NCBI RefSeq assembly: GCF_900403705.1
Contig: NZ_OUNR01000019.1
Location: 124,001-188,000, forward strand
From: Nitrospira lenta
GTDB lineage: Bacteria > Nitrospirota > Nitrospiria > Nitrospirales > Nitrospiraceae
DNA length: 64,000 nt
Direction of reading: 5' to 3'
The notes beneath the pieces are model-generated. The model did not search any database. It had not been told where the DNA came from and worked only from the letters and a program-made list of their open reading frames with translations. Below are positions 15,955 through 58,135 of the stretch, in pieces. The number at the start of each line of letters is the position of its first letter. The stretch's first letter is position 1. The translations under genes and the position numbers were made by a program.

Positions 15955-16191
15955 ATGGCAACCCCGTCCCAAGACCGCCAAACGAAGAAATCCTCCCGTA
16001 TCCAGGTCAAGGAAGCACTCAAAGGAGCTGTTCCTGTTCGCGAACCGGGTGAGCAGCCAGCGCATGGTCAAGATGAGCTCACAGCGAGAATTGAAGAGCG
16101 TGCGTATGAATTGTATGTGGAGCGCGGCTGTCGCGAAGGCTATGCTCTTGAGGATTGGCTTGATGCGGAACGGGAGATGCTCGGCCGATGA
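15955..16191 (+). CDS. DUF2934 protein
   Basis: 78 residues, ATG 15955 after agaaaggtgtgagc. A Lys- and Gln-rich N-terminus is followed by the DUF2934 core IEERAYELYVERGCREGYAL and EDWLDAEREML, closely similar to the protein at 8612. No signal peptide. Located 19 bp after the guanylyltransferase gene, so probably on the same transcript. Function unknown. Confidence 0.72.
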   Translation: MATPSQDRQTKKSSRIQVKEALKGAVPVREPGEQPAHGQDELTARIEERAYELYVERGCREGYALEDWLDAEREMLGR

Positions 16192-25243: not shown

Positions 25244-25442
25244 ATGAAGCAGCCACTATTGAAGGGGAAGCACAAGGACACGGAAGAATGAAACCCCAAC
25301 GTATTCGTTGCCCGATGAGTTACAGGAGCGAATCACTAAGCGAACCTACGAGCTTTACCTCCAGCGAGGTTGCCGGGAGGGGTGCGCCCTGGCGGACTGG
25401 GTGGACGCGGAGCGAGAGATTCTTACGTTGCCACGCAGCTAA
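25244..25442 (+). pseudogene. DUF2934 gene, frameshifted copy
   Basis: It starts MKQPLLKGKHKDTEE and hits a stop after 15 codons. The DUF2934 core DELQERITKRTYELYLQRGC and DWVDAEREILTLPRS is found intact in a different frame to a TAA at 25440-25442. It aligns with the gene at 8612-8824, and its upstream region from about 25090 also matches 8478-8611 (ctgttcgttccgtgaa). The frame was broken by a deletion in the linker. Confidence 0.78.
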
Positions 25443-25894: not shown

Positions 25895-27466
25895 ATGAGC
25901 ACGAAATCAAAGGCCTATCTCGTGGGAGGCGGCATCGGATCGCTGGCCGCCGCCGCGTTCATGATCCGCGACGGCAACATGCCTGGTGGCAACATTTCGA
26001 TCCTCGAAGCGGCACCCATCATGGGCGGAAGCCTGGACGGCGCCGGAAATCCCGCGGACGGGTATTCGTTGCGCGGCGGTCGCATGTTGACCACCGACAA
26101 CTACGAATGCACCTGGGATCTCTTCAAGTCGATTCCCTCACTGGGCAACCCGGGCAAGACGGTGTTCGAGGAAACCGTCGAGTTCAACCAGAAGTACAAG
26201 GCGCATTCGATGGCGAGGCTTGTCGATCGCCGGCGCGCCAAGGTGCCGGTGACATCGATGGGATTCTCGATGCAGGACCGGATCGAATTGCTGAAGCTCA
26301 GCAATGCCGACGAAGATGCGTTGGGCGCAAGCCGGATCACCGACTGGCTTTCGCCGGCGTTCTTCGAGACCGAATTCTGGTACATGTGGGTCACCACGTT
26401 TGCGTTCCAGCCTTGGCACAGCGCGGTTGAATTGAAGCGCTATCTGCACCGCTTCATGCTGGAGTTTTCGCGCATAGAAACGCTTGGCGGCGTCAAGCGG
26501 ACCATCTACAACCAGTACGACTCCCTGGTGCTGCCGTTGCAGGGCTGGCTTGAGGCCCAGGGCGTGCGTCTGGTCCGGGACTGCACGGTGACGGACCTGG
26601 ATCACAAGAGCGAGGACGGCAAGTTCGTCGTGACCGGGATCCATTGTCTGTGCCAGGGCAACAGCGAAGTGATTGCGGTGAATGATGGCGACCTCGTCTT
26701 CCTGCAGAACGGCTCCATGACCGACGCTTCCAGCCTCGGTTCGATGACGAGCGCACCCGCGAAGCTAACCAAGGCCGACAGCGGCGGCTGGACGCTCTGG
26801 GAAAAGCTCGCGCAAGGCCGGCCGCAGTTCGGCAATCCTGCGGCCTTCAACAGCTGCATCGCGCAGTCGTGCTGGGAGTCGTTCACGGTAACGCTCAAGC
26901 ACCCCGCATTCTTCGACGAGATGAATCAGTTCAGCGGCAATGAGCCGGGCACCGGCGGGCTGGTGACCTTCAAGGACTCGAACTGGCTGATGTCGATCGT
27001 GCTGGCGCACCAGCCCCACTTCACCAACCAGCCTGTCGACGTCCAGGTGTTCTGGGGGTACGCGCTGTTTCCGGATCGGGTCGGCGATTTCGTTCCGAAG
27101 CCGATGGCCGAATGCACTGGCACCGACATCCTGCAGGAGCTCTGCGGTCATTTACGCTTCGATCTGGAGACCGTTGCATCGGCCAACTGCATTCCTTGCC
27201 GGATGCCCTACATCACCAGCATGTTCATGCCGCGCATGCGCAGCGACCGGCCGCTGCCGGTGCCGCGTGACTCGAGGAATTTCGCGTTCATCAGCCAGTT
27301 CGTCGAAATTCCTGGCGATGTCGTCTTCACGGTGGAGTATTCGGTGCGGGCAGCGCAGATAGCCGTCTATGAGTTGCTCGGTATCGACCGCGCGATCCCG
27401 CCCATCACGCCCCACGACAAATCACTTCGAACGCAGTTTGAGGCGTTGATCAAGGCGTTTAAGTGA
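25895..27466 (+). CDS. ohyA: Oleate hydratase (MCRA family), Glu-lacking variant
   Basis: 523 residues. The FAD-binding GGGIGSLAAAAFMIRDG is at residues 11-27, with LEAAPIMGGSLDGAG following. Family landmarks are present: WDLFKSIPSL, FQPWHSAVELKRYLHRF, YNQYDSLVLPLQGWL and PCRMPYITSMFMPR. The enzyme adds water to the cis-9 double bond of unsaturated fatty acids. In most homologues the motif after the FAD loop is RGGRE, whose Glu acts in catalysis; here it reads RGGRML (60-65). As I recall, a monomeric subfamily known from Rhodococcus also has Met there. It lies between decayed genes, which suggests recent arrival. No operon partner. Confidence 0.85.
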   Translation: MSTKSKAYLVGGGIGSLAAAAFMIRDGNMPGGNISILEAAPIMGGSLDGAGNPADGYSLRGGRMLTTDNYECTWDLFKSIPSLGNPGKTVFEETVEFNQKYKAHSMARLVDRRRAKVPVTSMGFSMQDRIELLKLSNADEDALGASRITDWLSPAFFETEFWYMWVTTFAFQPWHSAVELKRYLHRFMLEFSRIETLGGVKRTIYNQYDSLVLPLQGWLEAQGVRLVRDCTVTDLDHKSEDGKFVVTGIHCLCQGNSEVIAVNDGDLVFLQNGSMTDASSLGSMTSAPAKLTKADSGGWTLWEKLAQGRPQFGNPAAFNSCIAQSCWESFTVTLKHPAFFDEMNQFSGNEPGTGGLVTFKDSNWLMSIVLAHQPHFTNQPVDVQVFWGYALFPDRVGDFVPKPMAECTGTDILQELCGHLRFDLETVASANCIPCRMPYITSMFMPRMRSDRPLPVPRDSRNFAFISQFVEIPGDVVFTVEYSVRAAQIAVYELLGIDRAIPPITPHDKSLRTQFEALIKAFK

Positions 27467-27700: not shown

Positions 27701-28627
27701 ATGACACAGAATAGACCGCTTATGGCCAATCGAGTGTTTCATGCCCTCGTTGTAGCCGTGATGGTAGTGACGTTTGTATGGCCTTCAGTGAGCTGGGGGG
27801 AAGATGTCTTTTCGAATAAGGATCCTCAAGCCCTGCTCGATCAGATCACAGAACTGCAAGCGGAAGTCGCAAAGCTGCGCGCGGCGGTGCAACAGACAGA
27901 TCGGATGAAGCGATCAAGGGCGGGTTCCCGTATGAAGATGGGTGGCGGCAAGGCCATGGTCGTGATGGACGATATGGGTGAGATGGGCGGCATGGGTACG
28001 GGTCAGAACCGTGGCATGTCGCAAGGTCTAGGCGGGGGGATGGGCAAGATGGGTGACCAGGGTGAGATGGGGGGCATGTCACCTGGTGGCAAGTCGTCTG
28101 GTGCGGGCGGTGGCATGGGGATGATGGATGAAGGTGAGATGGGCGGGATGGCTTCAGGGGGAGAAATGGGGATGTGCTGTATGGGAGAGATGGGCGGGAT
28201 GATGAGTGGCATGATGGGTCCTGGTCGCGGCATGGGAGGCATGAAAAGTTCGTCTTCCACGATGCCTGGACAGCCTGGCGCCTCCCATCTGTATCACATC
28301 GGGTCAACCGGTTTTTTCCTCAACCATTCGAAACATATCACCCTGACTGCCGACCAAAAAATGACGTTGAACCGGCTCAAGGAGAGGGCATTTCTTGACC
28401 GCACCACGGCACAACGACGCATCGATCAAGCCGAGCAGGAGCTGTACCAGTTGACAGGCGCCGACCAGCCGGACACGACTCAGATTCAGGCGAAAATAGC
28501 CGAGATCGAGAAACTGCGGACTGATCAGCGCATGAATTTCATCCGAGCGGTGGGGGAGGCCACCAACGTTCTCACGCATGATCAACATCGAGCCCTGTTA
28601 GGGACGATGACGTCTAATCAAAAGTAA
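27701..28627 (+). CDS. Met/Gly-rich periplasmic protein with CpxP/Spy-like C-terminus
   Basis: 308 residues, ATG 27701 after aaagaaaggag. A signal peptide (ending SVSWG) is followed by a short coiled coil (LDQITELQAEVAKLRAAVQQ), then about 110 residues dominated by Met and Gly (repeats of GEMGGM, MGGMMSGMMG and a GMCCMGEM segment), a likely Cu(I)/Ag(I) or Hg site. The last 100 residues (LTADQKMTLNRLKERAFLDR onward) resemble the helical Spy/CpxP/ZraP family. It may be a periplasmic metal-binding chaperone. Downstream genes lie in the same direction at short spacing. Confidence 0.72.
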   Translation: MTQNRPLMANRVFHALVVAVMVVTFVWPSVSWGEDVFSNKDPQALLDQITELQAEVAKLRAAVQQTDRMKRSRAGSRMKMGGGKAMVVMDDMGEMGGMGTGQNRGMSQGLGGGMGKMGDQGEMGGMSPGGKSSGAGGGMGMMDEGEMGGMASGGEMGMCCMGEMGGMMSGMMGPGRGMGGMKSSSSTMPGQPGASHLYHIGSTGFFLNHSKHITLTADQKMTLNRLKERAFLDRTTAQRRIDQAEQELYQLTGADQPDTTQIQAKIAEIEKLRTDQRMNFIRAVGEATNVLTHDQHRALLGTMTSNQK

Positions 28628-28655
28628 GGACCGAACCATGAAAGGAGCACATGCC

Positions 28656-28991
28656 ATGCGTACCCAAAGACACACCATTTCAGCTGTTCTTGTCTGTTTC
28701 ACGTTGGGTCTTTCTTCCTTGAGCTTCGGAGCAGACAAGTCCCAGTCCATGACGGACCAGATGTCACCTGAGTTGCGCAAAGACATGGCGGATATGTACC
28801 AGAAGATGGCGGACTGTGTGAGAACGGGGAAGTCAAGCGAGGACTGCCAGCGACAGATAGCGAAAGATTGCCCGGTGGTCGCGAAGACAGGTCAGTGTCC
28901 GATTGAAAAGGGAATGGGACACATGATGGGTCCTCGTGGCATGCGTCCAGAGGGCATGGGTCCCATGACAGGTCCTCATGAGATGCGCTAG
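28656..28991 (+). CDS. Secreted Cys/Met-containing small protein
   Basis: About 111 residues from ATG 28656 (ggag 8 bp upstream; an ATG at 28638 is also in frame). A signal peptide (LVCFTLGLSSLSFGA) is followed by a helical segment with four cysteines (MADCVRTGKSSEDCQRQIAK, DCPVVAKTGQCP) and a Met/Gly-rich tail (GMGHMMGPRGMRPEGMGPMT). Possible periplasmic metal binding, in line with the gene before it. Family not recognised. Confidence 0.62.
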   Translation: MRTQRHTISAVLVCFTLGLSSLSFGADKSQSMTDQMSPELRKDMADMYQKMADCVRTGKSSEDCQRQIAKDCPVVAKTGQCPIEKGMGHMMGPRGMRPEGMGPMTGPHEMR

Positions 28992-29008: not shown

Positions 29009-31327
29009 ATGAAGGATCCTCACCGTAACGTTTGCGTACTGACCCTGGCGACAATTCTGGTGCTGGGCACGCCCGCCACCGGCCAGATAGGGCCCGACGA
29101 GCATGCCAAACACCATCCTCAACCGGGCACAGCCAATCCGGCTGCCGGTGGGAATGCGGCGGGTGTAGCTCCGGGCGGCCGCGTGGGCGGGGGGATGGGG
29201 CCGGGCATGGGGGCTGGTATGGGTGGAGACCAGTCCGCGGCCGGTGGAGGCCCAGAGCCCGGCCGTATGGGGCCGCCCGCTGGCGTTGGGCCGCCAGGCG
29301 GCATGGGCGGTGGTATGGACGAGATGATGAACAAAATGGGGACGCCGCCACCCAAGGAACTCTACCCCTTGCTGATGGATGTGCCGGATCTGCTGCCCGA
29401 ACAGCGTGCCGAGGTCGAGCAGTTGGCGCATGAACGAATGAAGGCGGGGACCGCACGTCTCTCGTCCGGCTTGGAGAAGCTCGCCGGGGCAACCTCAGAT
29501 GATGACTACTCGGCCATGCAACAAGCGACCGAGCACATGCGACAGGGCCTTGCCCAATTTGAAAGCGGGCTGGCGGCGCACCGAGCGCTGAGCGAGGGGC
29601 AGGTCACCCGCAACGTGGCCCTGCAGTGGTTCAAACGCGAGATGAACCTCGCGTCTCCCATCCCGCGCGACGAGCTACATGCGCTTCTTGGGATTACGCC
29701 ATTTCACCTCTTCACGATGGGGCTGCTCATCGTGTTCGCGCTCGCCATGGTTGCCATGTACTTCTTCAAGATGCGCCGCGCCGCGGCTCTCTTTGGACGT
29801 CTCGATCCCGGCTCGGGGCCGCCGCCGCCCGGCGCGTCACCGCCGCTTGCCGGAGCCCCCGGGCCGTCCGCGCCGCCAGCCGGAGGGAAACCACAGGCTG
29901 GAGGGACACCGCCACCTGCGGCGCCGCCTTCGCCTCCCACGCCGCCAGCCGCGCCGGGTGGCGGAGATGCCGCAAAAATTGCCGGCCGAGCAGATGAACT
30001 CTGGCAAGCGAGAGGGCGGCCTCTGGGCTCTCCCGAAATTGACTGGGTGCGAGCCGAAGAGGAACTCGCCAAAGTGGCGGAAAAGCCTGCAGCCCCACCT
30101 GCTGCCGGAGGTTCGCTGCCCTCGCCCGCGGCGCCCCCAGCCGAAAAGTCACCGCCGCCGACTCCGTCGCCTGCCGCGCCCGCGGCATCAGCGCCATCGC
30201 GAGAAGAGTCATCGGCGATCCCCGTTCCGACCGCGAGCTCCGCGCCTCCCCTGACTGCGAATTGGCGAGGGCAGCTCCGCGTGGGGAGCATCGTCACGGA
30301 AACGCCAAGCGTGAAAACGTTTCGTCTCCTGCCTTTGTCCAACGACGGCCTGCTGCCGTTCACGTTTGTGCCCGGTCAGTTCCTCAACGTCGCGTTCTGG
30401 ATTGGCGGCGCGAGAATGAACCGCTCGTATTCCATCTCGTCCTCCCCGACGCAGCGGGATTACGTCGAGCTGACCGTGCGGCGTGAGCCACGGGGCGCCG
30501 TTTCCCGTCACATTAATGATCTGCTCAAGGTGGGCGACCAGATCGAAGCGGGAGGCCCGGTCGGAAAATTTACGTTTACCGGAACAGAGGCCGACAGTAT
30601 CGTGCTTGTCTCCGGCGGCGTGGGCATTACGCCCATGATGAGCATCACTCGCTATCTCACGGAGCGGGCATGGGCCGGAGACATCTTCTTTATCTACACG
30701 TGCCGCACTCCGGCCGACTTCATTTTTGCGGACGAAGTCGCCGCGCTTCAGCGCCGGAATCCGAAGTTGCGCGTCGCGGTCACGATCTCTAAGGCAGAAG
30801 GGACAGACTGGAAGGGCGCTCGCGGACGCATCACGAAGGAATGGCTCACGCAGACGGTTCCCGATCTGGCTTCGCGGAGGATCCACCTGTGTGGGCCGCC
30901 AGCGATGATGGACACGACCAAGGCCCTCCTCGCCGAGATCGGAGTCCCTCCGGACCGCGTGAAGACCGAAGCATTCGGCGCACCCAAGCCCACCCCGGCC
31001 GCCGCGGGGACCACCGCCAAACCCACTGCCCCCGCGACCGGCCCGCTCGTCACGTTTTCGAAAAACAACAAGTCGGCCAACATTCGTGTGGATCTCCAGA
31101 CTGGAGACAGCCCGCCGAAGCAGAGCATCCTGGAACTCTCCGAGGAGCTCGGCATCGGAATCGACTTCTCGTGCCGCGTGGGCACCTGCGGCCTGTGCAA
31201 AGTGAAGCTGACGTCCGGCGAGGTCGAGATGGCGGTGCAGGACGCGCTCGATGCTGACGACACAGCCAACAACATCATTCTTGCCTGCCAGGCCAAGCCG
31301 AAGGGCGAAGTCACGGTGGAGGCGTAG
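29009..31327 (+). CDS. Membrane-anchored flavin/2Fe-2S oxidoreductase with DUF2934 insert
   Basis: 772 residues. A signal peptide is followed by a Gly/Met/Pro-rich segment (about 45-110), a helical periplasmic part, a TM helix (TPFHLFTMGLLIVFALAMVA, about 230-250), a Pro-rich linker containing a DUF2934-like motif (GRADELWQARGRPLGSPEID), then a ferredoxin-NADP reductase-type domain. In that domain RMNRSYSISSSPTQRDYVEL is the FAD site, LVSGGVGITPMMSITRYL the NAD(P) site and HLCGPPAMMD follows. At the C-terminus is a plant-type 2Fe-2S ferredoxin (CRVGTCGLCKVKLTSGEVEM, then a fourth Cys in ILACQAK). The reductase and ferredoxin parts probably face the cytoplasm and pass NAD(P)H electrons to the next two genes' products. 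Confidence 0.8.
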   Translation: MKDPHRNVCVLTLATILVLGTPATGQIGPDEHAKHHPQPGTANPAAGGNAAGVAPGGRVGGGMGPGMGAGMGGDQSAAGGGPEPGRMGPPAGVGPPGGMGGGMDEMMNKMGTPPPKELYPLLMDVPDLLPEQRAEVEQLAHERMKAGTARLSSGLEKLAGATSDDDYSAMQQATEHMRQGLAQFESGLAAHRALSEGQVTRNVALQWFKREMNLASPIPRDELHALLGITPFHLFTMGLLIVFALAMVAMYFFKMRRAAALFGRLDPGSGPPPPGASPPLAGAPGPSAPPAGGKPQAGGTPPPAAPPSPPTPPAAPGGGDAAKIAGRADELWQARGRPLGSPEIDWVRAEEELAKVAEKPAAPPAAGGSLPSPAAPPAEKSPPPTPSPAAPAASAPSREESSAIPVPTASSAPPLTANWRGQLRVGSIVTETPSVKTFRLLPLSNDGLLPFTFVPGQFLNVAFWIGGARMNRSYSISSSPTQRDYVELTVRREPRGAVSRHINDLLKVGDQIEAGGPVGKFTFTGTEADSIVLVSGGVGITPMMSITRYLTERAWAGDIFFIYTCRTPADFIFADEVAALQRRNPKLRVAVTISKAEGTDWKGARGRITKEWLTQTVPDLASRRIHLCGPPAMMDTTKALLAEIGVPPDRVKTEAFGAPKPTPAAAGTTAKPTAPATGPLVTFSKNNKSANIRVDLQTGDSPPKQSILELSEELGIGIDFSCRVGTCGLCKVKLTSGEVEMAVQDALDADDTANNIILACQAKPKGEVTVEA

Positions 31328-31329
31328 CC

Positions 31330-32073
31330 ATGAAAGAACGTGAAGGCATCGTCGTCAGCAGCACCGTTGGCCTCTTATTGCTGGCCTGGCTCGGCTTCCT
31401 CCTCCACCGCTCGCCGCGCTTTGCGGGCAGCGGAATGGGGGCCGTGTTCGGGATCGCGGGGGCCGTGCTCATGCTCGTCCCGCTCGCGTACCCGATCGTC
31501 AAGCGTATTCGCTTCCTCAAGGCTCGAATTACACCGCACGTGTCGATGCAGTCGTTGCTGACCCTACACGTCTACGCCGGCATTTTGGGCCCTCTGCTCG
31601 CGATCATTCACACGGGTCACAAGTTCAACAGCGTGCTGGGAATTGCCCTCACGGCCGTGATGCTGCTCGTCGTCGTGAGCGGGTTTGCCGTCCGCTATCT
31701 GCTCACGCATTGCGCCCATGAGATCAAAGACAAATTACTCCTGCTGCAGACCGCCAGGGGCGATCTCGACAGTGCGTGGGGAGTGCTTGAGCACACCCCT
31801 GCTGAGATGAGAGTCCTTCCCAAGACACCTGTCCTGGCAACGGGCCTGGCGTCGCTGGGAATCGAGCTCCCCTTCGGCGGCCCAGCCGGTGAGGTCATCC
31901 GCACGGCCGATGGCGTAGCGGACCTGGAATATGCGATCCGCACGCACGAGTTGTTCAAGCGCTGGTTTAGCCGATCTCTCACGCTGCATATAACAGCATC
32001 CTTCGTGCTCTATGTCCTGCTGCTGCTCCATATCTGGTCGGGGATTCATTTCGGACTCAGGTGGTTCAGCTGA
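31330..32073 (+). CDS. b-type heme membrane protein (ferric-reductase/cytochrome b561-like)
   Basis: 247 residues starting 2 bp after the oxidoreductase gene. About four to five membrane helices. Paired histidines in facing helices (LLTLHVYAGILGPLLAIIHT GH, and LTLHITASFVLYVLLLLHIW with SGIH) look like bis-His ligands for two hemes b, as in ferric reductase-like TM domains. A soluble loop of about 90 residues lies between the helix groups. It would carry electrons from the oxidoreductase across the inner membrane to the following cytochrome. Confidence 0.7.
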   Translation: MKEREGIVVSSTVGLLLLAWLGFLLHRSPRFAGSGMGAVFGIAGAVLMLVPLAYPIVKRIRFLKARITPHVSMQSLLTLHVYAGILGPLLAIIHTGHKFNSVLGIALTAVMLLVVVSGFAVRYLLTHCAHEIKDKLLLLQTARGDLDSAWGVLEHTPAEMRVLPKTPVLATGLASLGIELPFGGPAGEVIRTADGVADLEYAIRTHELFKRWFSRSLTLHITASFVLYVLLLLHIWSGIHFGLRWFS

Positions 32074-32081
32074 GCGTATAG

Positions 32082-32897
32082 ATGAAGAAATCCATTCTCT
32101 TACTCGTCCTCGTTTTCGCCACGGCGGCCGCGCTTGCCGCTCTGTGGGAATCGGGAGCCAACGACGTCGCTCTGTGGCAGAGGCAGGTGCGCCCGGGGAA
32201 CCTCTCGGTGGCGCATGCGTCGCTCGACAACAATTGCGCCGCCTGTCACACGCCCGTGAAAGGACCGGTCGATGTGAAATGTATCGGCTGCCATGCCAAC
32301 AATGACACGCTGCTGCAACGTCAACCCACCGCGTTTCACGTGAACATCGGCCATTGTGCGCAATGCCATATCGAACATCAGGGCACGTATGCACGACTGA
32401 CGAGGATGGATCACGTGAAGTTAGCGGAAATTGGGTTGCAGCAGTTGGAGCGATCGGCGTCTGATAGTGAGCAGAGGCAGGCCGCCGATCAGCTGGTGGC
32501 CTGGGTCCGCCAGGTCACCATGCCGGGTTCCCTGCCGAAGCTGCCTCCCGTGACAGCGCTCGAAATGACATTGAATTGTTCGAGCTGCCACAGCACCAAA
32601 GACCGCCACCGTGGTCTTTTTGGAGGCGAGTGCGCGGTGTGCCACGGGACGACACAATGGGCCATCGCCGGATTTCGCCATCCCTCTCCGCGGTCGGTCG
32701 AGTGTGCCCAGTGCCACCAGGCGCCGCCGAGTCACTATATGATGCACTTCGACATGATCTCGAAACGGATTGCCAGGCAGGAAGATGCGCAAGTAGCCCA
32801 GTGCTGCGGGCCTGCTCAAGTGAACCAGTGTTATCGCTGCCACCAGACCACATCCTGGAACGACATCAAAGGCGTCGGTTGGTATAAGCACCATTGA
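32082..32897 (+). CDS. Heptaheme c-type cytochrome
   Basis: 271 residues with a signal/anchor (ILLLVLVFATAAALAALW) and seven CxxCH motifs: CAACH, CIGCH, CAQCH, CSSCH, CAVCH, CAQCH and CYRCH. Additional His residues for distal ligation lie in HVNIGH, HIEHQG, HPSPRS and HYMMHF. This fits a multiheme electron carrier of the cytochrome c3/c7 kind, in the periplasm. It starts 8 bp after the b-type membrane gene and completes a three-gene NAD(P)H-to-periplasm electron path. The final acceptor is unknown. Confidence 0.85.
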   Translation: MKKSILLLVLVFATAAALAALWESGANDVALWQRQVRPGNLSVAHASLDNNCAACHTPVKGPVDVKCIGCHANNDTLLQRQPTAFHVNIGHCAQCHIEHQGTYARLTRMDHVKLAEIGLQQLERSASDSEQRQAADQLVAWVRQVTMPGSLPKLPPVTALEMTLNCSSCHSTKDRHRGLFGGECAVCHGTTQWAIAGFRHPSPRSVECAQCHQAPPSHYMMHFDMISKRIARQEDAQVAQCCGPAQVNQCYRCHQTTSWNDIKGVGWYKHH

Positions 32898-42935: not shown

Positions 42936-44996
42936 ATGGACTTGATGACACACACAAATCCCGGACAGACGTCTGACCCACATGCTGGTCACCAGATGTC
43001 GCACGACCACCAGGGCCACGATCGCCACGCGGGCCATTCCGTGGCGATGTTTCGCGAGAAATTCTGGTTGAGTTTTGCCCTCACACTTCCCACGGTCTTC
43101 TGGTCGCCCGAGGTTCAACACTGGCTTGGTTACACGGCGCCCTCCTTCCCTGGCTCCACATTGATTCCCGCGATTCTGGGAACCGCCGTCTTCCTATACG
43201 GCGGCCTCGTGTTTGTGCGGGGGGCACAGGGTGAGCTTGCCGACCATAAGCCAGGCATGATGACGCTCATCAGCTTGGCCATCATTGTCGCATTTGGGAC
43301 GTCGCTCGCTGCGACATTTGGCCTCTTCCAGGTCGAAGTCTGGTGGGAACTCGCCTCGTTGATTACGATCATGGTGTTGGGCCACTGGCTCGAAATGCGC
43401 GCCATTTTCCAAGCCCGGGGCGCGCTCACTGCACTCGCCGCGTTGCTCCCAGACACGGCCGAGCGGGTCACCGGCGCGGAAGTCCGTACGGTGCCATTAT
43501 CGGAACTGCACGTGGGTGACGTGGTCCTTGTCCGGCCCGGAGGGCGCGTTCCGGCGGATGGCGCCGTTGTCGAAGGCGTCGCCGATGTCGACGAGTCGAT
43601 GATCACGGGCGAGTCGAAAGCGGTCTCGAAGGAACCAGGGACGACCGTGATCGCGGGAACGGTCGCCGGCGGTGGCAGCCTGCGAGTCCGCGTGACCGCA
43701 GTCGGCGAGCAGACCGCCCTCTCCGGTATCATGCGGCTGGTAGCCGCCGCCCAAGCGTCGAGTTCTCGCACGCAAGTCCTTGCCGACCGTGCCGCCGCCA
43801 TTCTGTTTTATGTGGCCGTCGCAGCCGGCGCGATCACGTTCACCTACTGGTGGGTGGCGGGGGACACCCAACATGCCCTGATCCGGACGGCCACCGTCCT
43901 CATCATTGCCTGCCCCCACGCCTTAGGGCTGGCGATCCCGCTGGTGATCGCCATCTCCACCTCACTCGGCGCGCGGAATGGGCTGCTCGTGAAGGATAGA
44001 CTGGCCCTGGAACGAGCCCGCCTGTTGGACATGGTGATATTCGATAAAACCGGCACGCTGACCCGCGGCGCTCCTGCAGTATCTGGAATTGCGGCTGTGC
44101 CTGGCACGTCGGAATCAGAATTGCTTGCCCTTGCCGCTGCTGTCGAGGCCAACTCCGAGCACCCCCTGGCTCGGGCCGTCGTCGAAGAAGCCACACGCCG
44201 GGGCGTGCGCCAACTGCAAGCGGCCAACTTCGAGGCGCTGGCAGGGCGAGGGGCGCGGGCCATGGTGGATGGCAAGAGCATTGCTGTCGGCGGACCGCGC
44301 CTGTTGGTCGAGGCCAAGGCCACGGTGCCTCCGGAAATTGAGAAGGCCACGAGCGCCTGGGCGTCGGAAGGAAGGACCGTGCTGTCTGTCGTCGCTGAAG
44401 GACGGCTGCTCGGTGCGCTTGCTGTAGAAGACGAGATCCGGCCCGAGTCGCTTGAAGCCGTCACCGACCTGCATCGCCTGGGTATCCGAGTCGCGATGAT
44501 CACGGGAGATGCGAAAACCGTGGCGGAGTCCGTCGCCCGGCGCCTTGGGATCGATGAGGTCGCAGCGGAGGTGCTTCCCGGCGACAAAGCTGCGTCCGTC
44601 AAGCGGTTTCAGGCGGGCGGCAAGAGGGTGGCCATGGTGGGAGACGGCGTGAACGATGCTCCGGCACTGGCCACCGCCGATGTCGGGATTGCGATTGGTG
44701 CTGGAACGGATGTGGCCATCGAATCCGCAGGCATCGTGCTCGTGCGGAGCGATCCGCGCGACGTGGTCGGAGCCATTGAGCTCTCGCGTGCGACCTACCG
44801 GAAGATGATCCAAAATCTCATCTGGGCAACCGCATACAACTTGGTCGCTATCCCGGTCGCCGGGGGGCTGCTCGTCCGCTGGGGATTCGATCTTCCCATG
44901 AGTGTGGGTGCTGTCGCGATGAGCATGTCCACAATCATTGTGGCGGCGAATGCGCAGTTGCTTCGTCGCCTGAAACTCCAGCGTGAGACCCTTTGA
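42936..44996 (+). CDS. Copper-transporting P1B-type ATPase with CPH motif
   Basis: 686 residues. A His-rich N-terminus (HAGHQMSHDHQGHDRHAGH) replaces the usual CxxC metal-binding domains. The transmembrane metal site is IIACPHALGLAIPLVIAIST: a CPH motif, seen in P1B-3 (CopB-type) pumps. Phosphorylation site VIFDKTGTLTRGAP, TGES (MITGESKAVS), the HP motif ANSEHPLARAVVEEA and the hinge [20 protein letters not shown] are present. It would export copper from the cytoplasm, or silver. It follows copAB by 270 bp. Confidence 0.9.
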   Translation: MDLMTHTNPGQTSDPHAGHQMSHDHQGHDRHAGHSVAMFREKFWLSFALTLPTVFWSPEVQHWLGYTAPSFPGSTLIPAILGTAVFLYGGLVFVRGAQGELADHKPGMMTLISLAIIVAFGTSLAATFGLFQVEVWWELASLITIMVLGHWLEMRAIFQARGALTALAALLPDTAERVTGAEVRTVPLSELHVGDVVLVRPGGRVPADGAVVEGVADVDESMITGESKAVSKEPGTTVIAGTVAGGGSLRVRVTAVGEQTALSGIMRLVAAAQASSSRTQVLADRAAAILFYVAVAAGAITFTYWWVAGDTQHALIRTATVLIIACPHALGLAIPLVIAISTSLGARNGLLVKDRLALERARLLDMVIFDKTGTLTRGAPAVSGIAAVPGTSESELLALAAAVEANSEHPLARAVVEEATRRGVRQLQAANFEALAGRGARAMVDGKSIAVGGPRLLVEAKATVPPEIEKATSAWASEGRTVLSVVAEGRLLGALAVEDEIRPESLEAVTDLHRLGIRVAMITGDAKTVAESVARRLGIDEVAAEVLPGDKAASVKRFQAGGKRVAMVGDGVNDAPALATADVGIAIGAGTDVAIESAGIVLVRSDPRDVVGAIELSRATYRKMIQNLIWATAYNLVAIPVAGGLLVRWGFDLPMSVGAVAMSMSTIIVAANAQLLRRLKLQRETL

Positions 44997-45657
44997 ACGA
45001 TACAGGTATCATAGGGGCGGCTCGGCTCGGAGCACATCTGCATGATGCTGGGCATAGAATTGCTAGTGCTTTCACTGGTTCCTTTAGTCTCCCAGCGTGA
45101 CATCTGGCGAATAGGTTAGAAAATTGTCTCGATCTTCATCTAAGCAAGACGTCGGAAGGTGGTCTTTATGGGTGGACTTCAGCGGAGTTTCGTGAGTGCC
45201 GTAATGCTATGGTCATGAGCGTGCCAGCTAATGCTGCGGCTGGATCGCATGAGCGCCCTGTCATACGACCTTTGTAAGGGTTAGCACTATATTTGGTATT
45301 GACCTCAAGGTCTCGCGTCTATATACAGGGGGTCGCTCCAAGCATGACTTTGTAGTCGTCCAATTATAAAGTGACGTAATTGGCAAAATATTTCTGAGCG
45401 CCAAAGCTGTTTGACCTCAGTGTCACAAAACACTGTTTCCTTCCATAAGCGGATTATAAACGACTTTATTTTTCTTTGGCCTATAGCGAATCTGGAAAGT
45501 AATCAATTTGGATGAAATCTGGCCAATCGAAAAAATTCCGAAATTGCCGCTATTAGTGTGGAGTGCTGTAAACAACTATATTTATCTCCACAATCGGTTC
45601 AGTAGACGATGGCGTGCGCCCCAGCAAGATAGATTCGCTCCACTTCTCGATTGCCGA
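44997..45657. other. A+T-rich intergenic stretch at the left island border
   Basis: About 660 bp with no convincing gene on either strand. It becomes more A+T-rich than the copper genes to its left. Three TGTC-starting points (45126, 45259, 45421) could be transposon ends. The stretch at 45445-45474 resembles, in inverted orientation, a stretch near 60800 (see the repeat entries). This is probably where the island begins. Confidence 0.45.
45445..45474 (+). repeat. Candidate TnsB-like site, left side
   Basis: ATAAGCGGATTATAAACGAC followed by TTTATTTTTC. It matches, with a few differences, the minus-strand reading of 60786-60814 (ATAAGAAGGATTATGTCAAC then TTACTTTTG), so the two lie in inverted orientation at opposite sides of the island. 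Shared words are ATAAG, GGATTAT and ACTT. Suggestive but short. Confidence 0.35.
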
Positions 45658-45972
45658 CTAGACCACAACTTCCAAACCGCGCTGTCGCACCAGGTGGAGC
45701 AGCTTGAGAGCGGTGCCTGTGGGCTTCTTCTGGCCGATCTCCCACTTCTGGACCGTCGACACACTTGTATTCAGAAGACGGGCAAACACTCCCTGGCTCA
45801 CCCGTGAGGACTCGCGGATGCGCTTGATTTGCGCCGGCTTCAACGGCGTGACGGGCGGCACGCACAGACGGTCAAATTCCTGCAGCGTGAGCTGATCCAT
45901 CGCGCCAGCCTTGTGTAGCCCCCTCGCCGTTTCGAGGACGGCTTCAAGAATCGCTGATTTGGTCTTTCGCAT
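45658..45972 (-). CDS. HigA-type antitoxin / XRE regulator
   Basis: 104 residues. The helix-turn-helix reads IKRIRESSRVSQGVFARLLN then TSVSTVQKWEIGQKKPTGTA, the pattern of HigA-2/YiaG antitoxins that pair with RelE/HigB-type toxins. Its partner should lie just upstream on the minus strand, but only a short piece in the right position and frame is left (45944-46033). The antitoxin may be solitary now. Confidence 0.72.
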   Translation of the reverse strand: MRKTKSAILEAVLETARGLHKAGAMDQLTLQEFDRLCVPPVTPLKPAQIKRIRESSRVSQGVFARLLNTSVSTVQKWEIGQKKPTGTALKLLHLVRQRGLEVVV

Positions 45973-46033
45973 CGCAATCCACCTCCATCAATTCACCAGC
46001 ACGCTGTGCGTGGCCGAGCGCTTGCGCCGTGAG
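45944..46033 (-). pseudogene. Possible HigB-type toxin, 3' remnant
   Basis: On the minus strand a frame reads LTAQALGHAQRAGELMEVDC and on to DAKDQISDS and a stop at 45944-45946, overlapping the antitoxin start by 29 bp. The GELMEV ending resembles the ends of RelE/HigB-type toxins. It is cut off at about 46033, exactly where the repeat array begins, so an insertion or deletion probably removed the rest. Confidence 0.4.
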
Positions 46034-46034
46034 T

Positions 46035-46122
46035 GGGTGCTGTCCTCGTTTCCCCTGAGCTGTCCTAGGCTCATTTGAAGTGTCCTAATTTAATTTTCAC
46101 TGACCTAACTAGGACAGCACCC
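46035..46122. repeat. 20-bp-spaced TGTCCT array bounded by a 12-bp inverted repeat
   Basis: TGTCCT occurs at 46041, 46061 and 46081, exactly 20 bp apart; a related tgacct is at 46101. The block begins with GGGTGCTGTCCT (46035-46046) and ends with its exact inverse AGGACAGCACCC (46111-46122). It lies at the cut end of the toxin remnant. It could be a small mobile element, a transposon end or a set of protein-binding sites. Confidence 0.6.
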
Positions 46123-46302
46123 GGGCATCATGAGGCGCAGCGCCTCGTCTGGCATAACCGGCATAGTCAATTCGAAGTATGAACAGAGAAACCGGCGCAG
46201 GCGGAACAATGCATCATTGATCGTCGACAGCCGGCTCACATATTCGGAGTCCTTCGGCAGTGCACACTCCGGCTGGTAGAAAAGTCTTTGCCAACTATCC
46301 AC
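46105..46302 (-). CDS. Short hypothetical reading frame
   Basis: 65 residues (DSWQRLFYQPECALPKDSEY, then SRLSTINDALFRLRRFLCSY) ending within the inverted repeat. The composition looks protein-like but there is no known motif and no ribosome site; it may be a fragment of a lost gene. Low certainty. Confidence 0.3.
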   Translation of the reverse strand: MDSWQRLFYQPECALPKDSEYVSRLSTINDALFRLRRFLCSYFELTMPVMPDEALRLMMPGCCPS

Positions 46303-46474
46303 CTGGTTGTCTGGTGTGCTTTCAACCGATCGTTTTGGCGTCTGAATATGCCAGAAAGTTCTCCATTTGACCCGTCTCAGATTAGAGCTTATGTTGTCAA
46401 TGGATGGAATGAGGTACCCGCAGCCGCCAACCCGCGCCCGAAAGAAATAACCAAGACCGAAGAACGCAACCGTC

Positions 46475-46783
46475 TCAGACGTGAACCGCCTCTCGTTTCC
46501 GCTCTTTTACTTTCACAGAGACTTCGACGCGCGAGCCAAGCTTATTGAGGATCATCATCAATCTGTCAGAGGTGAACCGTTCGAGATCAGCCGTTCGTAT
46601 TCGCGAAAAGTCAGCAGCCGGAACCCTTGTAAGGCCTTGCGCCTTCCGAACACTGAGTTCTTTCTTATCAAGCGCCTTAATGATTTCAGCGGCCAGAATA
46701 GCTTTAAACTGCCGAACATCTGCATAAGGAATGTTCAAATCCTGATAGACGTTTCCGCTCCCACGGATAATATCTTCTTTCAT
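46475..46783 (-). CDS. XRE-family helix-turn-helix regulator/antitoxin
   Basis: About 102 residues from ATG 46783. DVRQFKAILAAEIIKALDKK then ELSVRKAQGLTRVPAADFSR IRTADLERFTSDRLMMIL matches the short HTH proteins that act as antitoxins to Gp49-like (HigB-type) toxins. No toxin gene is next to it; instead an ImmA/IrrE-type gene ends 10 bp upstream. Probably in the same minus-strand operon. Confidence 0.7.
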   Translation of the reverse strand: MKEDIIRGSGNVYQDLNIPYADVRQFKAILAAEIIKALDKKELSVRKAQGLTRVPAADFSRIRTADLERFTSDRLMMILNKLGSRVEVSVKVKERKREAVHV

Positions 46784-46793
46784 TTGTATGACG

Positions 46794-47660
46794 TTATCTC
46801 TTCTTCGTTCTGTCTGGCCATGAAAGCATACCATCTAATTCTCGACAGTACGGGTCGCCGTCTTCCGTTTCCTCGTTTGCTGAGACTCCTCCCGCAGGAA
46901 GAGAGTCTTCCTCGAACCAGAGCAACGACAACATTCGATCCCAATCAGGCAAATACCTCGACTCCTCATAGAGAGTTCCGCCTCGAGTCCAGTCTTCAAA
47001 CCATTCTGTGGGGTCAACCTCGCAGGGACCCTCTTGAACAAGCTTTGCTCCTTGCGCTGCCAGGGATGAAGGCGGCACACGATATCCAATCTGAACCCAT
47101 GCTCCCATTTCTCTCAGGGAAGGGGAGCGGCTCGCGTAACGCACGATCCCATGCTCAGATAAGACAAATGTGCAAGGCATGTCGTTCAGCGCCGCAAAAC
47201 GGGATCCCGTCGCTGTCAGCGAGGCCTTAAATTTCTTTCCCAATGTGACTACAGAATTAAACCCCAGATCTACTGCATTTACTAGCGGCTTAAAATGATC
47301 AGAGGGCAATAGAATTTCAGAGGCAAAGACGTCACAGAGCACTTCATTTTTAGGCCGCTTGGTATAATGTTGCGAATCACTCTTGCCAGTGTGTTCACTC
47401 GAAAGATCTAGATAAATATGTCCAAGTTCATGACAGATGGTAAAGCGCTGCCGCTCTTCAAGGTGGTTCTTATTTACAATGATGTGCCACTTGTCTTTGA
47501 TGGGTAGGGAGTGACCGGATTCGTTTTCAGGAAGTTCTGTCTCATATCGAAGCCCTGCATCGATGTTCTTGACATAGCGTTCCATTGAAACTGGGCATGT
47601 AAGATCTGGAAAGCTTCGCACAAAAGCACGAGCTTTCAAAATAACGGTAGACTCATCCAC
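46794..47660 (-). CDS. ImmA/IrrE-family metallopeptidase
   Basis: 288 residues. Zinc-protease motif FTICHELGHIYLDLSSEHTG (HExxH), then NEVLCDVFASEILLPSDHFK with the third metal ligand Glu/Asp, typical of ImmA/IrrE proteins. They cleave XRE-type repressors and so turn on mobile-element or stress genes. It starts inside the end of an XRE repressor gene (8 bp overlap), its likely substrate. The C-terminal 130 residues are specific to this protein. Confidence 0.8.
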   Translation of the reverse strand: MDESTVILKARAFVRSFPDLTCPVSMERYVKNIDAGLRYETELPENESGHSLPIKDKWHIIVNKNHLEERQRFTICHELGHIYLDLSSEHTGKSDSQHYTKRPKNEVLCDVFASEILLPSDHFKPLVNAVDLGFNSVVTLGKKFKASLTATGSRFAALNDMPCTFVLSEHGIVRYASRSPSLREMGAWVQIGYRVPPSSLAAQGAKLVQEGPCEVDPTEWFEDWTRGGTLYEESRYLPDWDRMLSLLWFEEDSLPAGGVSANEETEDGDPYCRELDGMLSWPDRTKKR

Positions 47661-48042
47661 CTTCCATAGTCTCCCTGATTTTCCGGATCTGTTCGAGGAC
47701 TCTTTCCCAGGCGTCCTTTCCTATTGGCCGTCCACGCGATCTCATTCTGGCAGCGGATTCAAAGTCCTCGATGGAAACTTTGGAACTTTCCAAAACATAG
47801 TTCAATAAATCCTCGTCAACTGGTTGTTGTACGAGGAACTTCAAGATTCTTGCTTTGCGTTCTCCAGGTCGCAGCGCGCGGATCAAGCTATCCACAGTGT
47901 CATCCGATGGATCAGCCTTTTCCCCCGTCTCCAGTCGATGCACATATGCATGATCGAGATCGGCCAACTGACCCAATTGTCGCAATGATAGGCCCTTTTC
48001 GGTCCTGAGACGCTCAAGAAGTCCACCAAACCCTATCGACAT
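47653..48042 (-). CDS. XRE-family repressor
   Basis: 129 residues. An N-terminal helix-turn-helix (LLERLRTEKGLSLRQLGQLA then DLDHAYVHRLETGEKADPSD) is followed by a helical C-terminal part. It precedes and overlaps the ImmA/IrrE gene, the usual repressor-protease pair. It may bind the inverted repeat at 48080-48107, in its own promoter, and so control both itself and the divergent cargo genes. Confidence 0.8.
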   Translation of the reverse strand: MSIGFGGLLERLRTEKGLSLRQLGQLADLDHAYVHRLETGEKADPSDDTVDSLIRALRPGERKARILKFLVQQPVDEDLLNYVLESSKVSIEDFESAARMRSRGRPIGKDAWERVLEQIRKIRETMEGG

Positions 48043-48079
48043 ATGCCCTCTTGACTTGAAGGTAGTTTGCGGGTAGCCT

Positions 48080-48107
48080 GTTGTCCAGAAATATATTTAC
48101 AGACAAC
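48080..48107. promoter_or_regulatory. Inverted repeat, candidate repressor operator
   Basis: GTTGTC (48080-48085) and GACAAC (48102-48107) flank an A+T-rich near-palindrome (AAATATATTT). It lies 38 bp before the XRE repressor start, in the divergent spacer shared with the genes at 48295 and beyond. Likely an operator for the repressor; no direct evidence. Confidence 0.4.
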
Positions 48108-48294
48108 ATATTGACTCATGACTAGAAGTACTTATCACAATGACAATCGAATGAATCATGGCAACTGTAGTCCAACTGGGCAACACAATTTACTCTGGTA
48201 AATATGCCAATGCAAGCAGCCTTGAGATGAAATTAGGACCGCGTGATCAGTCGGGAACACCGCTAAACCAATCAGCCAACGAGAAAGGAGTCCT

Positions 48295-48537
48295 ATGGGA
48301 AAAAATGATCGTTACGTTGTGAAGCATGAAGATGGATGGGCCGTGAAAAAACCCGGTGCTGAACGAGCAAGTAGCATTCATCGCACCCAACACGAAGCTG
48401 AACAGTCGGCCAAAAACACCGTCGCAAACCTTGGCGGAGGAGAAGTGAGGATTCAGGGACGCGACGGACAGTGGCGCGATTCCGATACGGTATCACCCGG
48501 CAACGATCCTTGCCCTCCGCATGATCGTAAGCACTAA
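48295..48537 (+). CDS. DUF2188 protein
   Basis: 80 residues, gaaaggag upstream of ATG 48295. The DUF2188 pattern is clear: RYVVKHEDGWAVKKPGAERA SSIHRTQHEAEQSAKN, then GGGEVRIQGRDGQWRDSDTV. A small stand-alone domain of unknown function. It is 66 bp before the MBL gene and may be the first gene of the same transcript. Confidence 0.75.
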   Translation: MGKNDRYVVKHEDGWAVKKPGAERASSIHRTQHEAEQSAKNTVANLGGGEVRIQGRDGQWRDSDTVSPGNDPCPPHDRKH

Positions 48538-48603
48538 GAGTATTAGGATACCCCCTGAAGCAGGCCGTCGATGAAACCATGACTCTACCAAGAAAGGATC
48601 ACC

Positions 48604-49761
48604 ATGAGCGCCCCACATAAGATTGTTTGCTATCCGGTAGGGAATGGCGACACAACCCAAATCATTTTATCAAACGGTCGTCGGATACTGCTCGATTACT
48701 GTCACCGGAAGAAGGGAGAAGAAACTGAATCACCAGAGATCGATCTCAAGGAACGACTCAAACAAGAGCTGAAAAACGCCGAGCGAGACTATTTCGACAT
48801 AGTCGCCTTCACCCATGCTGACCTTGACCACATCCAGGGCAGCACGGAGTTCTTCGACCTGCAACATGCAGAGAAATACCAAGGGGAAGGGCGCATTAGA
48901 ATTCGTTGCCTATGGGTTCCGGCCGCTATGTTGCTCGAAGAGGTCGAAAGGGATGAGCAGAGTGAGGAATTCTGTATCCTACGTCAGGAAGCACGACACC
49001 GGTTACTTGAGGGCAAGGATATTCTCGTTTTCTCTAAACCCGACACACTCAAGGATTGGCTGGAACCAAAGCTTAAAGAACGAGGGGAAGCGGCTAATGC
49101 ACGGGATCACCTATTTATTGACGCCGGAACCATTGTGCCTGGCCTTTCGCTAGCATCCGATGGCGTAGAGTTCTTTTGCCATTCCCCTTTCATTAAGCAC
49201 TGTGATGGAACTGACATCGTTAGAAACTCAGCGTCTCTGGTATTCAATGTCCGCTTTCTAATTGGAGAAGCAACTTATGACTATTTCCATGTTGGAGACA
49301 CTGAATGGACCGATATTGAAGATATTGTAAAGACCACTCTCTACCACAAGAATGACGATCGACTCGCATGGGACCTATATAACATCCCTCATCACTGCAG
49401 CTACCTTGCTTTGAGTGACGAGAAAGGGGATACAGAAACCAATCCCAAACCCCTTGTAAAACATCTGTTACTGCAAGGTAAGAATGATGCCTACATGGTT
49501 AGCTCCAGCAAACCTATTCCTGATTTAGAAGAATCATATAAAGAGACTCAACCTCCACATATTCAAGCACGCAAAGCATATAAGAGACATCTCGAGGAAG
49601 TTGAGGGCCGAAAGCTTCTTGTGACAATGGAAGAACCAAACGCCAACAAGCCGGAACCACTTGTTTTTGAGATAGCAGGCGGGGGTATCATCTGGAGACG
49701 CTCAATATCCATTGGCAGTGCAGCCATTGTGACATCGCGCCCACCAAGAGCTGGATCATGA
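48604..49761 (+). CDS. MBL-fold metallohydrolase, first gene of the E2-E1-JAB operon
   Basis: 385 residues, gaaaggatcacc upstream. Metal-site motif FTHADLDHIQGS (H71, D73, D75, H76), then YFHVGDTEW with the bridging Asp and NIPHHCSY with the last His. The HxDxDH form resembles the ComEC-type MBL group. The start YPVGNGDTTQIIL is typical of this fold. No signal peptide or membrane segment. Its stop overlaps the next gene's start (ATGA at 49758-49761), so the two are translated together. It occupies the place where type II CBASS operons have a nucleotide cyclase; its substrate is unknown and may be a nucleic acid or nucleotide. Confidence 0.78.
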   Translation: MSAPHKIVCYPVGNGDTTQIILSNGRRILLDYCHRKKGEETESPEIDLKERLKQELKNAERDYFDIVAFTHADLDHIQGSTEFFDLQHAEKYQGEGRIRIRCLWVPAAMLLEEVERDEQSEEFCILRQEARHRLLEGKDILVFSKPDTLKDWLEPKLKERGEAANARDHLFIDAGTIVPGLSLASDGVEFFCHSPFIKHCDGTDIVRNSASLVFNVRFLIGEATYDYFHVGDTEWTDIEDIVKTTLYHKNDDRLAWDLYNIPHHCSYLALSDEKGDTETNPKPLVKHLLLQGKNDAYMVSSSKPIPDLEESYKETQPPHIQARKAYKRHLEEVEGRKLLVTMEEPNANKPEPLVFEIAGGGIIWRRSISIGSAAIVTSRPPRAGS

Positions 49762-52028: not shown

Positions 52029-53092
52029 TTTTGCCACCGAGCATCGCACTTGCTCTATCAGGCGGCGGCATCCGAGCAATTGTTTTTCATCTTGGCGTGA
52101 TACGACTGCTCGCAGAACGTCGCTTACTTGAGCACGTCGAACGAATCTCTACAGTGTCCGGTGGCAGTTTGCTTGTGGGGCTAATACTTCAAGCTAACCA
52201 GTATCAATGGCCATCCTCAGATCTCTTTATGGAGTCGGTATACCCAAATCTGCGTAATTCGCTGTGCAATAAAAGCTTTCAGTGGGGAGCCCTCCGGCAG
52301 CTCCTAAACCCTGTAAACCTGCCGTTCGTTTTTTCTCGAGCAAATTTGTTGGCATTAGCTATCGAAAAAGAATGGAATATTCGGATTAAGCTATCTGAAT
52401 TGCCGATTAGACCTGAATGGTCCATCAATGCGACTACAGCTGAGAATGGCAAACGTTTTCGGTTTAAGCGAAGCGATATTGGCGACTATCAGCTAGGCTA
52501 TGCTTCTGCTGAAGACTTTCATCTTTCGAGCGCGATGGCAGTTTCCGCTGCTTTTCCCGGAGGGTTCGGACCACTACGGTTAGACGCCACGCTCTTCAAT
52601 TGGCAAAAACGGGAATGGAATGCGCTTAAGGGAACTGAGCAGCCTGTCAATATCGGCTATAAATCTCTGCATCTATACGACGGGGGCATCTATGACAATC
52701 TCGGGTTGGAACCATTTTTTGATGCAGGACGCAGCAAGGCCAAGCATCCAGGGACTACTATCATCGTCTCGGATGCCGGACGTCCCTTACCTTCCGGCTT
52801 CGATTTCTTTTCGCTGAATCCGTTTCGACTTAAGCGTGTCGCCGACATCATGTCAGACCAGTCTCATGCATTACGTGTTCGGACCTTCTCCAACTATCTC
52901 CAGGAAAGCCCCGGACGGGGAGCATTCATATATATTGGGACGCCTATAGAGCCTACGTTACCCTGTAAGTCGGCTACATACACCTCGAACTTTCCTACAA
53001 CATTACGCCGAATTGATCTTACGGAGTTCGACTTGCTGGCCAACCATGGATATCAGGTCGCGAAACAGGCTGAGCAAGCCTGTGGCTTATGA
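52025..53092 (+). CDS. Patatin-like phospholipase, likely effector
   Basis: 355 residues starting in the stop of the E2-E1-JAB gene. Patatin elements: oxyanion loop LSGGGIRAIVFHLGVIRLL (GGGIR 13-17), nucleophile in STVSGGS (Ser45), and catalytic Asp in LYDGGIYDNLG (Asp219). Such enzymes cut membrane phospholipids and serve as effectors in CBASS (CapV) and other defence systems. There is no separate activation domain, so control probably comes through the two upstream proteins. The dyad is intact, so it is probably active. Convergent with an ImmA-type gene. Confidence 0.83.
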   Translation: MILPPSIALALSGGGIRAIVFHLGVIRLLAERRLLEHVERISTVSGGSLLVGLILQANQYQWPSSDLFMESVYPNLRNSLCNKSFQWGALRQLLNPVNLPFVFSRANLLALAIEKEWNIRIKLSELPIRPEWSINATTAENGKRFRFKRSDIGDYQLGYASAEDFHLSSAMAVSAAFPGGFGPLRLDATLFNWQKREWNALKGTEQPVNIGYKSLHLYDGGIYDNLGLEPFFDAGRSKAKHPGTTIIVSDAGRPLPSGFDFFSLNPFRLKRVADIMSDQSHALRVRTFSNYLQESPGRGAFIYIGTPIEPTLPCKSATYTSNFPTTLRRIDLTEFDLLANHGYQVAKQAEQACGL

Positions 53093-53158
53093 GGCTATCC
53101 AAAATCGAAAGAAAATTAATGTGACCTTGTGCAAGTCCTGTGAAGGGGACGCGATCTA

Positions 53159-55321: not shown

Positions 55322-55412
55322 AATTGTTCTTCAGTCTCAAACTTACAATTGCTGGCTCAAAACTTTTTTGATCGCCCCGTTAAAAACTGCCCAAAGATCA
55401 GTATTGGTGAGT

Positions 55413-58114: not shown

Positions 58115-58135
58115 CGCCAGTGAAAGGAGTTCTGA

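Follow-up and report, generated by a model that had tools for sequence, protein, structure and literature searches.

Inner-membrane proteins with five transmembrane (TM) helices and two HX13H motifs are encoded beside multiheme cytochromes in the PCC3 and PCC4 clusters, and in further clusters that contain 'another redox protein', and a link to quinones has been proposed for those of PCC3 and PCC4 (He et al., 2017, PMC5566968). An operon of Alteromonas with the order orf1/cyt/orf2/hynD/hupH/hynS/hynL has also been cloned, in which Orf1 and Cyt were dispensable for maximal activity in E. coli (PMC3102683). The known Gram-negative routes to periplasmic multiheme cytochromes run mostly via quinones; a direct link to NAD(P)H, if true, would be a different bioenergetic device. 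Here we analysed 64,000 nucleotides of Nitrospira lenta (assembly GCF_900403705.1, 3.76 Mb in 22 contigs; contig NZ_OUNR01000019.1, positions 124,001 to 188,000 of the forward strand), hereafter the window, to whose numbering coordinates refer unless another locus is named. It carries three adjoining genes, for a reductase (Red), a membrane protein (b) and a cytochrome (c), which we consider likely to encode a transmembrane NAD(P)H:cytochrome c electron-export module, built like a split NOX or ferric reductase and extended by a heptaheme wire. No published description of such an NAD(P)H-linked triplet was found in a literature search, which did not cover many subscription papers.

Red, b and c form a conserved triplet

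The three genes are consecutive open reading frames (ORFs) on the + strand, at 29009..31327 (Red, 772 aa), 31330..32073 (b, 247 aa) and 32082..32897 (c, 271 aa), and the gaps of 2 and 8 bp reported in the original prediction were confirmed. Red is a putative membrane-anchored NAD(P)H reductase with a periplasmic Met/Gly-rich head, one TM helix and a cytoplasmic FAD/NAD/2Fe-2S part, b is a predicted five-TM bis-heme b protein with two HX13H motifs (H80/H94 and H220/H234), and c is, by Pfam, TM prediction and alignment, a membrane-anchored periplasmic heptaheme cytochrome c with seven CXXCH motifs.

The three genes almost always occur together. A search of a genome collection with the alignment of c alone returned 226 relatives, of which the best 80 were retained (loci throughout carry L numbers), and in 77 of these 80 loci Red and b lay just upstream of c on the same strand. 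Two of the three exceptions were contig edges, and in the third only c was recognised. Over 55 non-redundant loci the most frequent gaps were +2 bp between Red and b and -4 bp between b and c. Red and b also co-vary, their distances correlating at r 0.85. When 395 genomes of the phylum were searched with b, a clean gap separated the triplet-type matches (E < 1e-80) from distant ones (E > 1e-16), and the four new strong matches were accompanied by both Red and c.

Red carries a predicted cytoplasmic flavin domain and a putative metal-binding periplasmic head

Red (+ strand throughout) begins with a putative signal peptide of approximately residues 1-25 (29009..29083; hydrophobic segment 7-28), followed by the head, with an HxxHH motif (H32, H35, H36) and then the Met/Gly-rich stretch (29087..29344), and by a conserved periplasmic domain of residues ~112-230 that has no Pfam family (29342..29698). 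TM prediction gave one strong segment (residues ~223-258), and together with loop charge placed the single TM helix and the subsequent KMRRA stop-transfer motif at 29699..29770. The remainder contains the Pfam domains FAD_binding_6 and NAD_binding_1 (30308..30922) and a C-terminal plant-type [2Fe-2S] domain (Fer2, 31109..31303), in which C722, C727, C730 and C760 are invariant, corresponding to the layout of FNR-type class IB. All 41 aligned Reds had the FAD, NAD and Fer2 domains, and 31 of them the ferric-reductase domain NAD_binding_6. The nearest relatives of the FNR/Fer2 half were the class IB reductases GbcB, Hcr and PaaE, with scores well under their cut-offs. The description of Red as a membrane-anchored FAD/2Fe-2S reductase with a signal peptide and a periplasmic part is thus borne out by Pfam, TM prediction and loop charge.

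Because a signal-like N-terminus and a periplasmic part precede the TM helix, and the positively charged KMRRA motif follows it, the FNR/Fer2 half is predicted to be cytoplasmic; the mean net charge of the TM flanks was +3.2 on the C-terminal side versus -0.1 on the N-terminal side, in keeping with the positive-inside rule. An independent line comes from five loci (L046, L070, L080, L089 and L099) in which the Red gene is split between the TM helix and FNR, the separate FNR/Fer2 protein having no signal peptide. Taken together, the topology of Red and these natural gene splits give good support by inference to a cytoplasmic flavin domain, and we rejected a periplasmic one on both grounds.

The Met/Gly-rich head pointed out in the original prediction is real and conserved, with a family mean of 13% Met and 22% Gly, and it comes together with HxxHH, which was present in 40 of the 41 aligned Reds. 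The head probably faces the periplasm and binds copper or another soft metal. The weight placed earlier on a DUF2934 motif was not justified. The motif is a lineage-specific insert in a Pro-rich linker (29975..30070, +; residues 323-354; Pfam, 32 bits against a cut-off of 22) and, since it was found in only 1 of 41 full-length Reds and one split Red (L041), we consider it a sporadic insert and rejected it as a functional part of the system. Its recruitment from nearby is likely, because four of the five copies in the genome lie within ~21 kb of the same contig (matches at 8699-8806, 16078-16176, 25317-25424 and 29975-30070).

Conserved predicted heme sites in b and c

Five TM segments were predicted in b, and of the loops between them the predicted cytoplasmic ones are the more positively charged. 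H80, H94, H220 and H234, the predicted heme ligands, are invariant, and both HX13H motifs were retained in 48 of 48 aligned sequences. Topology and the two motifs would place H80 and H220 near the inner face of the membrane and H94 and H234 near the outer face. Five loci (L062, L074, L079, L085 and L088) encode a C-terminal extension of ~280 aa on b, recognised by Pfam as DUF547 in L062, which is expected to be periplasmic and which we counted as support for the topology. In c, the seven CXXCH motifs were invariant in 56 of 56 aligned sequences, and ten further His were also invariant, which would be enough for bis-His ligation of every heme; Pfam gave a weak match to cytochrome c3/c7. The earlier assignment of a bis-heme b protein and a heptaheme cytochrome c agrees with these alignments.

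Based on the conserved cofactor sites and the topology, we propose that electrons would pass from cytosolic NAD(P)H to the FAD of Red, possibly through its [2Fe-2S] centre, then to the inner b heme (H80 and H220), the outer b heme (H94 and H234) and finally the seven c hemes in the periplasm, while the single TM helix of Red would hold the flavin domain at the inner membrane face. This order is supported by inference, and such a module would bypass the quinone pool. As an architecture read from sequence, the predicted transfer of electrons from NAD(P)H to a multiheme cytochrome is well supported, and the original interpretation as a whole is partly supported. Two outcomes that would have refuted it, a flavin domain outside the cell and a lack of co-occurrence of the three genes, were both checked, and neither was seen. 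Since the genes are three and small, the module should be testable in one heterologous experiment.

Metal islands, mobility and the electron acceptor

Beyond the original prediction, the analysis brought out metal-island, plasmid and hydrogenase contexts of the triplet, and its link to the HX13H inner-membrane proteins of PCC3 and PCC4. We searched 33 whole genomes for PF07732 and derived the expectation from domain count and genome size; a multicopper-oxidase cluster gene lay within ~10 kb on either side of the triplet in 18 of the 33 loci, as compared with 0.5 expected (P = 4e-26, a value that is indicative only, because genes were treated as randomly placed and the BLAST cluster stands for presence). 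A cluster member for a multicopper oxidase, P-type ATPase or RND protein was near the triplet in 35 of the 55 non-redundant loci, and a Met-rich Metal_resist protein within ~10 kb in 29. Copper islands surrounded plasmid-borne triplets of Variovorax, Sphingobium, Sphingomonas, Acetobacter and Spirosoma.

The terminal partner of the module probably varies. In the copper islands it would most likely be a periplasmic metal ion or a metal-handling protein, which is our leading guess. A narrower form of the proposal, in which the triplet is a periplasmic reductase of Cu(II) or another soft metal captured by the head, would fit the conserved HxxHH and Met-rich head, the copper-island context and the frequent metalloreductase activity of FRD enzymes (PMC3591440), but we hold it only tentatively, given that the neighbouring multicopper oxidases should work the other way, by oxidising Cu(I), that no reductase activity is known and that the metal context may be passive. 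By analogy with E. coli MsrPQ, which is copper-induced and repairs Met residues of CusF (PMC9302797), the electrons might instead go, under copper stress, into the reductive repair of periplasmic proteins that have become oxidised, and the islands are indeed rich in Met-rich periplasmic proteins. This weaker candidate appears quite improbable, as no MsrP-like molybdoenzyme domain was seen among the scanned neighbours of the triplet and b has four heme His, unlike YedZ/MsrQ.

The triplet is also widespread and mobile. Isolates carrying it belong to Pseudomonadota (Tahibacter, Methylocaldum and several Legionella), Bacteroidota (Dyadobacter, Ilyomonas), Planctomycetota (Tautonia, Stieleria, Rhodopirellula) and Verrucomicrobiota (Coraliomargarita), and metagenome-assembled genomes, whose labels call for the usual caution, add Acidobacteria, Nitrospira, Nitrospinaceae, Elusimicrobiota and others. 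Within Nitrospira the distribution is patchy, with strong b matches in 3 of 35 genomes of the genus and one more from the phylum search. The window b was 73-78% identical to several copies from Planctomycetota, Verrucomicrobia and Acidobacteria, while its identity to Nitrospira copies was 46% in one case and 87% in another; judged by the higher identity to other phyla than to the 46% copy, b has moved between lineages. We found c in 52 plasmid records, 26 of them on plasmids typed as conjugative, and Red, b and c lay on one strand in 13 of 13 plasmid regions inspected. One scan of viral contigs gave no b relative.

These observations indicate that the triplet travels as a unit, mostly in mobile copper or heavy-metal islands, and several of these islands hold genes for NAD(P)H-forming dehydrogenases as well. 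A broader proposal, to which we give somewhat less than an even chance, is that a mobile, quinone-independent, split NOX-like module spreads among phyla on metal islands, that varied periplasmic partners can be attached to it, and that the head may gate or feed it. In this picture the recipient would gain a direct route by which cytosolic NAD(P)H could discharge electrons into the periplasm. A module linking NAD(P)H directly to a multiheme cytochrome would, if true, also explain the gene set that many metal-resistance plasmids carry under the annotation '2Fe-2S protein, hypothetical protein, cytochrome c3 family protein'.

Some further features of these regions were recorded. At least two triplets are clustered on the Bradyrhizobium BTAi1 plasmid (L149), and in one of them Red is truncated and lies beside an IS3 element. 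Genes for DUF1622 membrane proteins were repeatedly near or adjoining plasmid triplets (L145:12617-13060, L154, L143, L148 and L159). Fused cytochrome b561/multiheme c proteins adjoin the triplet at L066:10699-12636 (10 CXXCH) and L039:5665-7359 (6 CXXCH), and could link it to the quinone pool.

Direction of electron flow and the hydrogenase variant

Enzymes that form NAD(P)H adjoin several triplets: glutamate dehydrogenase overlaps Red by 4 bp in L094 and L109 and lies 12 bp away in L060, and glucose-6-phosphate dehydrogenase (G6PDH) overlaps the triplet in L096 and lies 54 bp away in L105. Together with the metal setting, these neighbours lead us to favour outward electron flow. On plasmids of Alteromonas and Glaciecola, a single gene for a membrane protein separates the triplet from a downstream [NiFe] hydrogenase with hyp genes, and this hydrogenase, whose HynS carries a Tat motif, is expected to be periplasmic; in Alteromonadaceae it would be the Tat-exported partner of the triplet. 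By position and gene order, orf1 and cyt of the cloned Alteromonas operon correspond to b and c, and our proposal, if true, would provide these unexplained genes with a role.

In this variant inward flow is plausible. The corresponding route, in which periplasmic electrons, from H2 via HynSL or from another low-potential donor, would pass through c and b to Red and NAD(P)+, gains from the location of the triplet directly upstream of the Tat-signal [NiFe] hydrogenase and hyp genes. The potential of H2/H+ is below that of NAD+, which also counts for it. That hydrogenase activity in vitro did not require orf1 and cyt (PMC3102683) is as expected for electron partners. Nevertheless, we regard the inward route as unlikely, since the hydrogenase linkage is confined to Alteromonadaceae and the copper islands hold no obvious donor below NAD(P)H. 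A Salinimonas plasmid (L156) retains the triplet and hypE, but the region has no structural genes for the hydrogenase, apparently through a natural deletion, and the window genome gave partial matches only and no convincing [NiFe] catalytic subunit. On the strength of these two cases, a hydrogenase was rejected as the general partner of the triplet.

Observations weighing against an NAD(P)H-driven module

Several observations weigh against the electron-export proposal. No measured activity of any triplet member was found in the literature, and the quinone link put forward for the HX13H inner-membrane proteins of PCC3 and PCC4 (PMC5566968) leaves room for a quinone site in b. The window b had no Pfam match; the weak matches in its family, to Ferric_reduct (PF01794) in 8 of 48 (best 3e-4) and to DUF4405 in 18 of 48 (best 6e-7), were set on the side of the proposal. 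The AlphaFold2 (AF2) model of b (pLDDT 85.7) showed bundled helices that are long on the cytoplasmic side. Its alignment with SpNOX at Z 9.3 (121 residues, 3.5 A) was set on the same side, but it aligned equally well with cytochrome b561 (Z 9.2) and with unrelated helical bundles, and a Foldseek search against the PDB gave no match below E 0.001. Because of these ties the fold comparison leaves the family of b undecided, and the modelled structure by itself cannot tell an FRD fold from that of cytochrome b561 or of Fdh-N gamma. The model of c was poor (pLDDT 62.7), too poor for a structure search. Finally, the metal context may represent passive linkage within resistance islands, and there was little copper context at L146 and L149.

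The quinone proposal can be extended to the triplet itself, as a conduit in which b would trade electrons with quinones of the pool, in the manner suggested for the PCC3/PCC4 proteins and CbcBA, with Red as an accessory. It draws on the five TM helices and two HX13H motifs common to b and the PCC3/PCC4 proteins (PMC5566968), and on distant b homologues of related genomes, which pair with 5-heme or 24-27-heme cytochromes in the absence of Red. In the present subfamily, however, Red was found in 77 of 80 loci and co-varies with b, and we consider such a conduit improbable.

Surroundings of the triplet in the window

Two genes upstream on the + strand are associated with the triplet but not part of its core. 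They encode a Met-rich Metal_resist/Spy-like periplasmic protein (27701..28627, 308 aa, by Pfam) and a secreted Met-rich protein (28638..28991, 117 aa), for which L020 and L021 have a gene of similar size in the same place. Within 7 kb on the 3' side lie 6-phosphogluconate dehydrogenase, G6PDH and glucoamylase. Beyond these come a multicopper oxidase of the CopA type, CopB and a P-type ATPase. An MCRA/oleate hydratase gene is situated 5' of the triplet (25895-27466), and a Sphingomonas plasmid (L158) likewise has such a gene together with its triplet. At 44001-60000 the GC content drops from ~0.60 to 0.49, which suggests a boundary between segments of differing origin.

Comparison with known systems

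The Geobacter CbcBA and CbcL systems likewise combine a membrane b protein with a multiheme c at the inner membrane; they differ, by description and not by sequence comparison, in having menaquinol as donor and no NAD(P)H flavoprotein. In MsrPQ, acting with Fre, a membrane heme protein also passes cellular reducing power to a periplasmic partner, and in E. coli this is linked to copper stress, whereas the triplet has its own flavoprotein and multiheme c in the operon, and four heme His. In the YedZ/STEAP type the first heme His is replaced by Arg (PMC3591440), unlike in b, where all four His are invariant. The Alteromonas HynSL operon contains the presumed b and c counterparts, which are known only as hydrogenase accessory genes, and its construct lacked Red.

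SpNOX and the FRD family share with the triplet the predicted logic from NAD(P)H through FAD and an inner heme to an outer heme, and the ferric-reductase NAD domain. In both, two TM helices carry four His that would hold two stacked hemes, with identical order and pairing (PMC11564096), and in b these His are invariant. The triplet differs in having its TM and dehydrogenase portions as two chains, an added 2Fe-2S domain and a periplasmic heptaheme c as the presumed acceptor, and the window b has no Pfam FRD match. Judged by its domain layout, the triplet is not classed as a NOX, because the FAD/NAD(P)H domain is on Red and not fused to b.

With PCC3 and PCC4 the triplet shares the five TM helices, the HX13H motifs on TM3 and TM5 of b and the adjoining multiheme c. 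Distant homologues of b from this phylum lie in clusters of that kind, and those of the genus have 24-27-heme or 4+10-heme cytochromes as partners. PCC3-like clusters in other genomes of the genus combine a b homologue with a 15-27-heme cytochrome (L025:6632-10135; L022, L024, L026 and L029), and L025 also has an ORF of 1167 aa with 43 CXXCH. A PCC4-like cluster (L032:2342-10826 and L030) pairs a b homologue with 4-CXXCH and 10-CXXCH cytochromes. It also encodes a pyridine-nucleotide flavoprotein of 797 aa that has cNMP-binding and 4Fe-4S domains, so that this type of b is found with a second flavoprotein of unrelated kind. As for the differences, no WX3H precedes the motifs of the window b, and its TM4 has SGFAV, an SGXXV and not the SGXXG motif that 29 of 48 members of its family carry. 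No porin was recognised beside the triplet among the genes scanned, which were not every ORF, the only candidate being CopB, ~9 kb away, while PCC3 and PCC4 are modelled as quinone-linked, with porins for extracellular transfer. In the triplet, b and c are partnered by an FNR/2Fe-2S protein for NAD(P)H. On these sequence grounds we place Red-b-c in the HX13H class of He et al. (2017), as a subfamily whose constant member is a dedicated NAD(P)H reductase.

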